From assembly GCA_029251375.1 (NCBI GenBank), contig JAQXDL010000039.1, positions 1-47,048 on the forward strand: a stretch of 47,048 nucleotides of DNA, read 5' to 3'. The position numbers and the translations under genes were made by a program. The first letter of the stretch is position 1; each line of letters opens with the position of its first letter. A model generated the notes under the pieces. It was not told the DNA's origin and did not search any database. It saw only the letters and a list, made by a program, of their open reading frames with translations. This DNA is from Pseudomonadales bacterium (GTDB lineage: Bacteria > Pseudomonadota > Gammaproteobacteria > Pseudomonadales > Azotimanducaceae). Below are positions 3,854 to 27,688 of the stretch, piece by piece.

Positions 3854-4954
3854 ATGGAAATAGATAGCGCCTCTGAAGAGAAAGAGTTTTCTGTACTTCA
3901 TGACTTGTTGAAGTCAGACACGCCTCTGCTTGATGTTCGCGCGGCGGTGGAGTTCTCCAAAGGCGCCTTCCCCTTCGCCACAAACATACCAATCTTAACT
4001 GATGAAGAGCGGCAACAGGTTGGCACCTGCTACAAACAAGAAGGCTCGCAAGCTGCAACCAAACTGGGCCATGAACTGGTCAAAGACGATACTAAACAGC
4101 ACAGGATAGATGCTTGGGCTGCCTTTTTGAACGCTAATCCACAGGCTTGGATATACTGCTTTCGAGGAGGCCAACGTTCGACGATCGCACAACGTTGGCT
4201 AGCAGAATCAGGTATTGATGTCCCTAAAATCGAAGGCGGCTACAAAGCGCTGCGTCGAAGCCTGCTTCATCTTTACGACAACCTACCACCTTTGGTCATC
4301 GTTGCAGGTAAGACAGGTGTTGGTAAAACAATTTTGATCAATGATCTCAATAACAGTATCGATTTAGAGGGCCGAGCCAATCATCGTGGTTCAGCATTCG
4401 GTAATTATTGGACCCAACAACCCTCACAGATCGATTTTGAAAATCGTGTCGCGATCGATCTTTTGAAAAGTAAAGGCACCGTTGTGCTTGAGGACGAAGG
4501 CAGACTGATTGGCAAACTAAGCTTGCCACTACCGCTGCAGGCGGCAATGAAACAGGCGCCTTTGGTATTACTTGAAGCGACCGTACAGGAACGTGTTGAG
4601 ACCATTTTTCAAGATTATATCGTTGATTCAATCGCAAGCTGTGATCAGACAGAAAACGCAGTTGAATTGCTCGAGACGAAATATTTAGATGCACTTAGTG
4701 CAGTAAAGAAACGCTTAGGTGGCGAGGCTTACGCGACAATATCATTAGCAATGAAAACGGCCTTTAATGACCATAGAAAGGGAGATCCAACTAGCCATAA
4801 AAACTGGATTAAGTCGATGTTAGTGACCTACTACGACCCCATGTATGAGTATCAGATTCAGAATAAACAGGACCGAATTATTTGTCGTGGATCGATAACG
4901 GAACTTAAGCAGTATCTGGCAGCGTCCAATCTCAACGAAGTTGCGGCGCGATAA
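3854..4954 (+). CDS. mnmH: tRNA 2-selenouridine synthase
   Basis: The product (366 residues, the usual MnmH/SelU/YbbB size) has an N-terminal rhodanese domain with the active-site loop YCFRGGQRS (Cys102), followed by a P-loop domain with Walker A GKTGVGKT at residues 152-159. MnmH converts 2-thiouridine at the wobble position of tRNA-Lys, -Glu and -Gln to 2-selenouridine via a geranylated intermediate, using selenophosphate from SelD. All key motifs are intact. Its presence implies that the cell makes selenophosphate, which matters for the TGA-containing gene at 27041. It starts 13 nt after the acylase gene; the pairing has no obvious functional logic. Confidence 0.96.
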   Translation: MEIDSASEEKEFSVLHDLLKSDTPLLDVRAAVEFSKGAFPFATNIPILTDEERQQVGTCYKQEGSQAATKLGHELVKDDTKQHRIDAWAAFLNANPQAWIYCFRGGQRSTIAQRWLAESGIDVPKIEGGYKALRRSLLHLYDNLPPLVIVAGKTGVGKTILINDLNNSIDLEGRANHRGSAFGNYWTQQPSQIDFENRVAIDLLKSKGTVVLEDEGRLIGKLSLPLPLQAAMKQAPLVLLEATVQERVETIFQDYIVDSIASCDQTENAVELLETKYLDALSAVKKRLGGEAYATISLAMKTAFNDHRKGDPTSHKNWIKSMLVTYYDPMYEYQIQNKQDRIICRGSITELKQYLAASNLNEVAAR

Positions 4955-25258: not shown

Positions 25259-26110
25259 CTAATCATGGGGTTTAAATTCTTCATTCAACATTAACGACGA
25301 CGCAACCTCCTTAAATGTCTCGTAATCGACATCGTCACCTAACTCAATGCCCTCGTTGACACACATCTTGAGTATCGAAAAGTTACCCCCTGACGCCTGC
25401 AATATGACGCCGTTTGGGGCATCGTCTGAACTAAGGTAGAGAACTGCGGGACTCACTTGCTCCGGTTTACCGCGCAGGATTCCCGAAGGTAATCCTTCTG
25501 TCATTCGTGTTGTTGCACCGGGTGCCAAACAATTTGTGCGTATGCCCCGTTTTGCACCTTCAAGCTTGAGTACATTCATGAAGCCAAGAAGACCCATTTT
25601 AGCTGTACCGTAATTGGCCTGGCCAAAATTCCCAAAAATGCCACTACCTGAACTGGTTAACACAATCCGCCCCCAACCATTGCTAGACATGACTGGCCAA
25701 GCGGCTTTAGTAACATAAACACTACCAAGTAGATGCACATCCAATACAGCCCGAAAATTATCCATGGTCACATTTGTGAAGGTTTTGTCTCGAAGAATGC
25801 CTGCATTATTGATGAGGATATCCACGGAACCAAAGGTATCCATTGCCGTGTTAACAATACTTTGTGCTTCAGAAACGATGGCGACGGAGGCAGTATTGGC
25901 AACCGCGACACCACCGATTTCAGTGATTTCATCAACAACAGATTGCGCTGTGTTACTTGAGCCTGTGCCGTCTACACCACCACCCGAATCATTAACGACA
26001 ACTTTCGCACCTCGACGCGCAAACTCAATAGCATGTGATCGTCCAAGGCCGCGGCCTGCACCCGTAACGATAACAACCTTATCCTCAAACTCGTCAGCAG
26101 TATTATTCAT
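25259..26110 (-). CDS. SDR dehydrogenase, peroxisomal multifunctional-enzyme (HSD17B4)-like
   Basis: The 283-residue protein has the SDR cofactor motif TGAGRGLGRSHA, an NNAG motif in [14 protein letters not shown], Ser plus the Y-x-x-x-K pair in SSGSGIFGNFGQANYGTAK, and APGATTRMTE. The phrases GILRDKTF and GNFGQANY are typical of the 3-hydroxyacyl-CoA dehydrogenase domain of MFE-2/HSD17B4. It probably oxidises a 3-hydroxyacyl-CoA with NAD+. It resembles the SDR at 41455-42360. The GNAT gene follows without a gap. Confidence 0.92.
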   Translation of the reverse strand: MNNTADEFEDKVVIVTGAGRGLGRSHAIEFARRGAKVVVNDSGGGVDGTGSSNTAQSVVDEITEIGGVAVANTASVAIVSEAQSIVNTAMDTFGSVDILINNAGILRDKTFTNVTMDNFRAVLDVHLLGSVYVTKAAWPVMSSNGWGRIVLTSSGSGIFGNFGQANYGTAKMGLLGFMNVLKLEGAKRGIRTNCLAPGATTRMTEGLPSGILRGKPEQVSPAVLYLSSDDAPNGVILQASGGNFSILKMCVNEGIELGDDVDYETFKEVASSLMLNEEFKPHD

Positions 26111-26344: not shown

Positions 26345-26364
26345 GTCCTTGGTATTAAGTCCTG
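26323..26364. repeat. Three 14-bp tandem repeats
   Basis: Units GGTACTAAGTCTTT (26323-26336), GGTACTAAGTCCTT (26337-26350) and GGTATTAAGTCCTG (26351-26364) lie head to tail. The last overlaps the stop end of the leftward GNAT gene. Confidence 0.85.
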
Positions 26365-26852
26365 AGGGTGCGTGTTAGGTGTTTGATGAGGATGACGTAA
26401 TCGATGTCATTCTTCGCGTCGACAAAATAACTCAGGTCGTCATAACCAAAACTTCTGTAGAGATGCATCGCGCGGCGATTGAATTTTGCAACGGTAAGAC
26501 GAACAGATGTTGGCTCAAATGTTTGAATGGCAAAACGCTCAATGGTTTCAAAAAATTCAGCACCGTTACCATGGCCTGTATAGTTTGGTTTCATGCCGAG
26601 TCCAATATCTAAAGCCTGAAGAGAGTAATCCCCTCCCGCAACCTGGCCATCCCTGCCATATGAACAGAAACCGATAAAAGCATCCTTTCTATCCAAAATA
26701 GAATGAAAAGCAAACTCAGGTCGAAGAAACTGCTCAACGTAGAAGGTATTGCGACCATCCTGGGGAGGGTCATAGAAATCGTATGGTATTGGATAACGCC
26801 AGGTCAAAATTTCCCTAGCGTGCTCTTCATTGATGGCTTCAATCGTAAACAC
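26355..26852 (-). CDS. GNAT-family N-acetyltransferase
   Basis: The 165-residue product has the GNAT layout: an N-terminal MFTIEAINEEHAREILTWRYP, a central strand LDIGLGMKPNYTGHGNGAEFFETIERFA containing the acetyl-CoA loop (G-x-G-N/x-G), and TVAKFNRRAMHLYRSFGYDDLSYF, the usual C-terminal N-x-R-A-x-x-L-Y-x-x-x-G-F signature. The substrate is unknown. The start is GTG at 26852. It is divergent from the selenoprotein gene. Its last codons overlap the 14-bp repeats. Confidence 0.85.
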   Translation of the reverse strand: MFTIEAINEEHAREILTWRYPIPYDFYDPPQDGRNTFYVEQFLRPEFAFHSILDRKDAFIGFCSYGRDGQVAGGDYSLQALDIGLGMKPNYTGHGNGAEFFETIERFAIQTFEPTSVRLTVAKFNRRAMHLYRSFGYDDLSYFVDAKNDIDYVILIKHLTRTLRT

Positions 26853-27040: not shown

Positions 27041-27688
27041 ATGCATAAATTAATGAAAAACTTCAGTAAAAGTATGACTAAAGGGTGTCGATTATTCCTC
27101 ACAAGTTTCCTGCTCATAGTAGGTGCGTTTATATCTGTGTCCAGCTCTGCACAGCAAAACGCGGTCACTGAAACGGAACCAAAAGAATGGTCTGCTGATT
27201 TCCCGATTGGAACGGCAATGATCGAAGGTAAGGCTTCAGACCAGACAGGTCGTACATTCACGCTGTCCGAGTTATCCGGTGAGCGAGGCTATCTGCTAGT
27301 TATGAACCGCTCAGTTGTTTGGTGAGGATACTGCAAACGACAGCTCGTGCAGCTGTCAAATCGAGCAGAAGAATTCACATCTCAAGGCATCCAACTGTCG
27401 ACTATGACCTATGATAGTAATGAAGATGCTCTGGCATTCCATCAGCAATCGAACCTAACATTTCCGATACTTCAAGACGTCGATTCTGTCCATATAAAGG
27501 CACTAGGGATTCTCAACGAATCGGTCGCTAAGGATCATTGGGCGTATGGCATTCCGCATCCGGGCATATATCTTGTCGACGCTTCAGGGATTATACGTGC
27601 AAAGTTTGCTGAACAGGGCTACAAGAAACGACCCTTGATCGACGATATTTTGAAAGCTGTCAATCAACTCGTCACTGCCTCGCATTAA
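27041..27688 (+). CDS. Predicted selenoprotein: exported AhpC/TSA-like redoxin with U-x-x-C active site (TGA at 27323-27325 read as Sec)
   Basis: Read through the TGA, the frame is 215 codons with Sec at 95. A signal peptide (about residues 16-38, ending SSSAQQ) implies a periplasmic protein. A redoxin fold follows: FTLSELSGERGYLLV, then NRSVVW-U-GYCKRQLVQL, LSTMTYDSNEDALAFHQQ, FPILQDVDS, GIPHPGIYLVDASGIIRAKF. Homologues have W-C-P-Y-C-K-x-Q-L here, so TGA replaces the first redox Cys and Cys98 is the partner. Frame and similarity continue without shift on both sides, and a SECIS-like hairpin follows. The protein is probably a thiol/selenol oxidoreductase or peroxidase. The alternative is a pseudogene with one nonsense mutation, or two split ORFs; the hairpin and the TGA position argue against both. 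An M20 peptidase gene starts 50 nt downstream. Confidence 0.87.
27339..27357 (+). promoter_or_regulatory. Bacterial SECIS element
   Basis: GACAGCT (27339-27345) pairs perfectly with AGCTGTC (27351-27357) around the loop CGTGC. The loop begins 20 nt after the TGA (within the 16-37 nt known for bacterial SECIS), and its second base is G, as the SelB-binding consensus requires. The hairpin lies in coding sequence for KRQLVQLS. Confidence 0.82.

Follow-up and report, generated by a model that had tools for sequence, protein, structure and literature searches.

The window, a 47,048-nucleotide stretch of DNA from a Pseudomonadales bacterium, is contig C20 of a 4.16-Mb assembly that is 99.6% complete. 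Translation of its plus strand from position 27041 to position 27688 gives a frame of 94 residues, a TGA codon at 27323-27325, a further 120 residues and then TAA. A mechanical ORF list reports this frame as two pieces, 27041-27325 (94 amino acids) and 27347-27688 (113 amino acids), which are separated by a gap of seven sense codons. The initial annotation, which had described one gene split by an in-frame TGA into same-frame ORFs of 94 and 113 codons and had expected standard gene calling to fragment it, was thus correct with respect to the coordinates, the description and the fragmentation. The residues around the TGA read V-V-W-U-G-Y-C-K-R-Q-L-V-Q-L, in which U95-G-Y-C98 represents the UxxC motif of the Prx-like class. 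When the TGA was translated as a residue, two Pfam matches were found to span it, namely AhpC-TSA (75.3 bits against a cut-off of 26, residues 56-187) and Redoxin (41.5 bits against a cut-off of 26.6, residues 63-197). The features of the locus are collected in Table 1.

Table 1. Features assigned to the redoxin locus, in window positions
Feature	Position	Strand	Basis
Predicted selenoprotein gene encoding a 215-residue redoxin (PF00578) with Sec at residue 95 (U-G-Y-C)	27041..27688	+	translation, homologues, Pfam, dN/dS
Putative signal peptide region with a basic start, a LFLTSFLLIVGAFISV core and SSSAQQ (approximate boundary)	27041..27160	+	by eye
Predicted Sec codon TGA, aligned to the first Cys of the WCxxC of homologues	27323..27325	+	alignments
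Second active-site residue, Cys98 (TGC), invariant in both homologue alignments	27332..27334	+	
Putative SECIS hairpin, with loop CGUGC	stem 27339-27345 with 27351-27357, loop 27346-27350	+	covariation, RNAalifold

A signal peptide is likely, judging by eye, and the protein therefore probably acts in the periplasm. The N-terminus of L023, an 80%-identical copy of the gene from the same genus, is similar to that of the window gene when the two copies are compared. The AlphaFold model of the protein has a mean pLDDT of 86 and is confident outside about the first 50 residues; pLDDT is low across about residues 1-50. Seven TGA-interrupted frames were found in the window, and the six others were set aside, as they lie within, lie largely within, or run on from longer ORFs.

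Conservation of the in-frame TGA

The homologue search covered 145 genomes, including the one that contains the window, and the 60 best matches had E values of 1.3e-26 or better. TGA was the sole type of internal stop in 58 of these 60, with one internal TGA in 57 of them and two in the other. Of the two exceptions, G132, which comes from another family of the same order, has no internal stop and carries the Cys form, and G019 has a TAG and a TAA inside the frame. A sequencing error at the TGA, which the initial annotation had named as a potential flaw, is excluded, since 58 of the 60 best matches carry the codon; a chance TGA is likewise excluded, because the same TGA is present in L023.

Among the fetched loci, 61 W-U-x-x-C copies were found in 60 of the 145 genomes, one of them being frameshifted near the motif. 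Four columns do not vary in an alignment of 30 sequences (29 Sec forms plus L036, a Cys form), namely W49, column 50 with its Sec or Cys, C53 and Q56. We read the residue at the TGA position in the 61 W-U-x-x-C copies and in 81 Cys homologues, where Sec and Cys, respectively, were found; 80 of the latter were obtained from a contig scan that kept the best 80 of 234 relatives and used a pattern requiring WC, so that the Cys in those 80 homologues does not constitute an independent count. The homologue alignments bear out the earlier proposal that the TGA falls at the first active-site Cys of the family and that the second Cys is kept.

The window gene was compared with L023 on either side of the TGA. 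Before the TGA, dN was 0.19 and dS was 1.19 (dN/dS about 0.16), and after it dN was 0.07 and dS was 1.48 (dN/dS about 0.05). The 44 bases from 27320 to 27363, starting with the TGG codon that precedes the TGA and ending shortly after the hairpin, are identical in the two copies, the next longest identical run being 21. A run of 44 was matched by 6 of 5000 codon-column shuffles, and the synonymous sites elsewhere are near saturation.

The downstream hairpin and its imprint on the protein

The hairpin sequence, GACAGCU-CGUGC-AGCUGUC, is located 14-32 bases past the TGA, and its loop begins after 20 bases. The apical loops of bacterial SECIS elements lie 16-37 bases from the UGA (PMC10778597) and contain a G (PMC1088965); the CGUGC loop has a G, and its distance of 20 bases falls inside the range of 16-37. 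Because single-sequence folding of the window gene was unremarkable (z of -1.08 for 43 bases and -0.59 for 91 bases), the case for a SECIS element rests on comparison. The 43-base piece of the window gene folds preferentially into a different structure, and Rfam gave no match within the window at the gathering score. When the window gene alone was subjected to synonymous shuffling, 2.5% of the shuffles folded equally well.

The covariation set comprised 55 distinct sequences and excluded the window gene and its nearest relative, L023. Pairing was observed in 98.5% of the 330 cells of the hairpin, versus at most 46.1% in slid controls, which retain the relatedness of the sequences. Changes on both sides of a pair were present in 61 cells, as compared with a mean of 18 after shuffling, and none of 500 shuffles reached 61, where this and the other covariation and shuffle p-values count related genomes as independent. 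At one stem position, 29 sequences have C-G and 26 have U-A; a second pair is G-C in 41, A-U in 9, G-U in 3 and unpaired in 2, and the outermost pair occurs as six standard pair types. RNAalifold, unaided, arrived at the same six pairs. The number of pair types did not exceed that in column shuffles for two of the three variable pairs or for the total (313 and 457 of 500 shuffles reached the observed values); it is by the count of compensated cells and by the covariation score that the hairpin exceeds the shuffles.

Some of the covariation is purely synonymous. In the 43 genes with Gln, Glu or Lys two codons after Leu, where changes at the C-G/U-A pair are synonymous, the first base of the Leu codon and the third base of the [QEK] codon form C-G in 32 and T-A in 11, with no mixed case. 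The neighboring Gln/Leu codon pair is G-C in 39, A-T in 10, G-T in 3 and A-C in 2 of the Sec genes, whereas the same table for the Cys genes showed no association (p 0.68). The full set of five inner pairs is present in 52 of the 54 distinct Sec sequences (from which one frameshifted copy was left out), versus 2 of 79 distinct Cys sequences. The mean hairpin energy of the Sec genes was -8.3 kcal/mol, compared with -3.8 for synonymous shuffles (0 of 500 reached the observed value), and that of the Cys genes was -1.5, compared with -1.6 (393 of 500). In its form the hairpin corresponds to the SECIS elements of bacteria, and the changes within it are compensatory and in part synonymous.

The Sec and Cys sequences were also compared at three consecutive codons beginning with the loop codon. 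The loop codon encodes Val in 52 of 54 Sec sequences versus 8 of 79 Cys sequences; at the second codon, Gln, Glu or Lys is encoded in all 54 versus 19 of 79, and at the third, Leu in all 54 versus 48 of 79. At the second of these codons, Asp is the commonest residue in the Cys sequences (46 of 79), but it is absent from all 54 Sec sequences. Given that Asp (GAY) lacks the purine that pairs in the stem, the motif QLV[QEK]L, though it resembles an extension of the active site, is best explained as an imprint of the SECIS element. All of the Sec genes belong to a single order, and most of the Cys genes are from outside it; mere ancestry is argued against by nine Cys rows from Gammaproteobacteria that cluster with the Sec forms and by L036, from the same order, all of which hold just two to four of the five pairs. 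The contrast between the 54 and 79 distinct sequences shows directly how an in-frame SECIS element restricts the protein. It suggests a rule for annotation, together with the caution that a conserved motif past a Sec residue need not be catalytic.

Decoding of the TGA and the predicted activity

The initial annotation had proposed a search of the genome for selA, selB, selC and selD, and all were encountered. SelB is full-length (420 bits against a cut-off of 242.25), and SelD scored 273.7 bits against a cut-off of 125; each of these two models exceeded its cut-off in 2 of 14 control genomes. A tRNA-Sec was detected with Rfam (60.1 bits against a cut-off of 47, a score that by itself is weaker evidence because the model passes in 5 of the 14 control genomes) and with ARAGORN, which reported tRNA-SeC with the anticodon tca. 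A SelA-like gene, recognized by eye from its sequence and its place beside selB, lies directly upstream of selB at L009 8047-9456 and overlaps the selB start by four bases. SelB at E 1e-60, a threshold at which the control matches were E. coli and M. jannaschii only (2 of 14), was found in 53 of the 60 genomes with a WUxxC copy versus 27 of the 85 others (Fisher p 3.7e-12, with genome relatedness ignored). The seven WUxxC genomes that lack a SelB match at E 1e-60, including the nearest relative G003, are 73-91% complete.

Several observations accompany the decoding genes. SelD is a 728-residue fusion (L021 1396-3582, minus strand) whose N-terminal half resembles, by eye, an NADH-dehydrogenase-type oxidoreductase; the SelD half has Cys, also by eye. 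The fusion is similar to the Ndh-SelD fusions named in the GOS survey (PMC2398784). The window itself contains a gene for the tRNA 2-selenouridine synthase MnmH/SelU (3854-4954, plus strand; 453 bits against a cut-off of 361), and from this second selenium gene it follows that the organism probably uses selenium in both protein and tRNA. The G019 copy (L162) is decayed: its Sec codon is replaced by TGG, and it carries additional stops. That genome, which is 91% complete, has no SelB match at E 1e-60. Such decay is what would be expected if the gene decays once decoding is lost, this being a single case.

If the gene were a pseudogene or the product of a sequencing error, the TGA would either terminate translation or result from a misread base, and the part after it would go untranslated. 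The standard ORF list does split the gene, and a decayed copy with TGG for TGA and other stops does exist in G019; however, this explanation is in effect refuted by the 58 best matches, out of 60, that have TGA as their only stop, and the low dN/dS after the TGA, the compensatory changes in the hairpin and the decoding genes of the genome leave it with practically no probability. An open frame past the TGA does not alone reveal which residue is inserted, and one could envisage that the codon is read without selenium as another residue, such as Trp, through reassignment or suppression. We consider this very improbable, since the column holds Cys in G132, which was found without a Cys requirement, as well as in the 80 pattern-selected homologues, since the genome has tRNA-Sec and SelB, and since almost all of the Sec genes read have the hairpin and few of the Cys genes do, a feature for which suppression would have no need. 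Based on the conserved TGA, the compensatory changes in the hairpin and the dN/dS of about 0.05 after the TGA, we conclude from the sequence comparisons that 27041-27688 is a selenoprotein gene, neither a pseudogene nor an error, and the reading of the in-frame UGA as a selenocysteine codon is supported by computation. Support for the selenoprotein gene is firm; standard ORF listing cuts it in two and can be expected to do likewise with its relatives.

A search with the AlphaFold model showed that the nearest solved folds, among the matches listed, are peroxiredoxins, including ApPrx, Bcp4 and AhpE; for AhpE of M. tuberculosis, TM was 0.90 of the target length at 1.7 A and 25% identity. In a profile alignment to ResA, both Cys residues of WCxxC were aligned. 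When the profile was aligned to a BCP chain, Ser stood opposite the Sec column and the peroxidatic Cys opposite the second Cys; the BCP Pro lands on R90 with one residue inserted, and VAKRAVF lies opposite GvPhPai, with the Arg of the former at the P of the latter. The peroxidase motif of peroxiredoxins consists of P-x-x-x-T/S-x-x-C and a catalytic Arg, of which the Cys alone is retained in the alignment to the BCP chain, and W-C-x-x-C and a G-[IV]-P loop are thioredoxin-type features. As modeled, the protein is a peroxiredoxin scaffold that bears a thioredoxin-type active site. Given that Sec stands at the Thr/Ser position of peroxiredoxins and that the Arg is not kept, the motif and fold indicate that the protein is most likely a thiol:disulfide oxidoreductase in which Sec95 is the nucleophile and Cys98 is the resolving residue. 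A true peroxidase, in which Cys98 at the peroxidatic position or Sec95 would reduce peroxides and the U-C pair would serve as the resolving couple, is in keeping with the peroxiredoxin fold of the nearest structures, with the alignment of the second Cys to the peroxidatic Cys of BCP, and with the property of Sec as a fast peroxide nucleophile. We nonetheless judge a peroxidase, which is the main alternative, to be rather unlikely, since the peroxiredoxin Pro, Thr/Ser and Arg are not kept and the W-C-x-x-C motif and G-[IV]-P loop are of the thioredoxin type.

The explanation that we hold with considerable confidence is that of a probably exported selenoprotein redoxin, in which UGA is the selenocysteine codon and the peroxiredoxin scaffold would function as a thiol:disulfide oxidoreductase. 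According to established knowledge of selenocysteine insertion, SelB bound to the hairpin would deliver Sec-tRNA to the UGA, yielding a precursor of 215 residues. The exported mature domain, with its W-U-x-x-C motif and conserved G-[IV]-P loop, would then act as the thiol:disulfide oxidoreductase; Sec95 would attack a disulfide or an oxidized substrate, Cys98 would close a selenenylsulfide, and a periplasmic reductant would reopen it. A broader proposal, which we offer as speculation and regard as rather doubtful, is that an apparently gammaproteobacterial family centers its periplasmic redox housekeeping on Sec redoxins, that a hybrid site with Sec in place of Thr and a peroxidatic Cys could use a selenenylsulfide to reduce peroxides as well as disulfides, and that the SECIS element, not catalysis, dictates QLV[QEK]L.

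Related proteins, phylogeny and neighboring genes

Selenoproteins of this kind have been described from marine samples. A Prx-like family of 22 sequences, 21 of them with UXXC, was reported in the Sargasso Sea survey (PMC1088965), the GOS survey lists Prx-like 1 (pfam00578, UxxC) with 225 sequences (PMC2398784), and a 2026 review includes a Prx-like thiol:disulfide oxidoreductase of PF00578 with UxxC or UxxU (PMC13188914). The 2006 survey gives one selenoprotein family in Gammaproteobacteria outside the groups that it lists separately, and it reports a remnant SECIS in some Cys forms (PMC1794560). The statement in the initial annotation that U-x-x-C redoxins are known from marine metagenomes therefore agrees with the published PF00578 selenoproteins. 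That annotation had left undecided whether this exact family is described; on the available portions of these papers, the answer is affirmative for the kind (PF00578, UxxC) but does not extend to subfamily identity, the published members having been compared by description. The published Prx-like UxxC selenoproteins have in common with the present protein the PF00578 domain and a single Sec in UxxC, and compared by description, the available portions of those reports do not mention a signal peptide, a clade-wide Sec form or a covariation-tested SECIS element. The literature search, which had most subscription journals outside its range, returned no title or abstract start naming the gene in this clade. 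Thus the kind is already known from the sea, and the present case is an unusually clear and clade-wide one; the clade-wide use, the covariation-tested SECIS element and a hairpin that fixes QLV[QEK]L are apparently new as far as this literature, available in part, shows.

The Cys homologues (L052-L131 and L036, from Alphaproteobacteria, Acidobacteriota, Gammaproteobacteria and others) share the domain, the G-[IV]-P loop and a C-terminal part resembling Y-K/R-x-RP, and most have R-S-x-x-W-C-P-[FY]-C. They differ in having Cys for Sec and, mostly, other residues at the position of V-[QEK]-L in the Sec genes. The AhpE/BCP peroxiredoxins share the fold and the position of the second Cys, but their Pro, Thr/Ser and Arg are not kept here, and Sec occupies the Thr/Ser position. 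The ResA-type thiol-disulfide oxidoreductases share WCxxC, with both Cys residues aligned; in contrast to them, the first residue here is Sec, and peroxiredoxins make up the 50 structures listed for the model. No NCBIfam model listed for the protein reaches its cut-off, the best match being the SelL-related redox protein (NF040769) with 38.8 bits, far below the cut-off of 120.

The genome contains further Sec redoxins. One, at L011 940-2091 (minus strand), is a 383-residue AhpC-TSA protein with WUPPC, and its C-terminal part matches the DsbD N-terminal domain with 26.9 bits against a cut-off of 25. Another, at L012 1225-1983 (plus strand), has WUPYC, 252 amino acids, an AhpC-TSA match of 79 bits and, by eye, a hydrophobic N-terminal third. 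A scan of the genome for TGGTGANNNNNNTGY gave 142 matches versus 37 in the reversed control; of six selected places, L198 reads as a redoxin and the other five do not. The L198 frame, redoxin-like by eye, carries WUPYC and lies on the minus strand at about base 850 of the reverse complement; it is a candidate for the fourth such redoxin of this genome.

The tree contained 126 rows, made up of 47 of 60 Sec copies (13 were removed by a length filter) and 79 of 81 Cys rows; L036 was absent. The Sec label requires two changes on this tree, and a single change sufficed in none of 200 bootstrap trees. Nine gammaproteobacterial Cys homologues (L052, L053, L055, L056, L060, L061, L066, L069 and L073) are placed inside the Sec group, with moderate support (90/80 and 94/83) at the forks concerned, and each of the nine lacks at least one of the five hairpin pairs. 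Their position may reflect reversion from Sec to Cys, a possibility that we note as a lead only.

The genes neighboring the redoxin gene indicated no pathway in the window or in six larger relative loci. An acetyltransferase gene (26355-26852, assigned by eye) adjoins the redoxin gene in five of those six loci (L204-L208, not L209), and a short-chain dehydrogenase gene (25259-26110, by eye) comes next in L204 and L205. The conserved neighbors are a sign that the locus has been inherited vertically rather than a clue to function.
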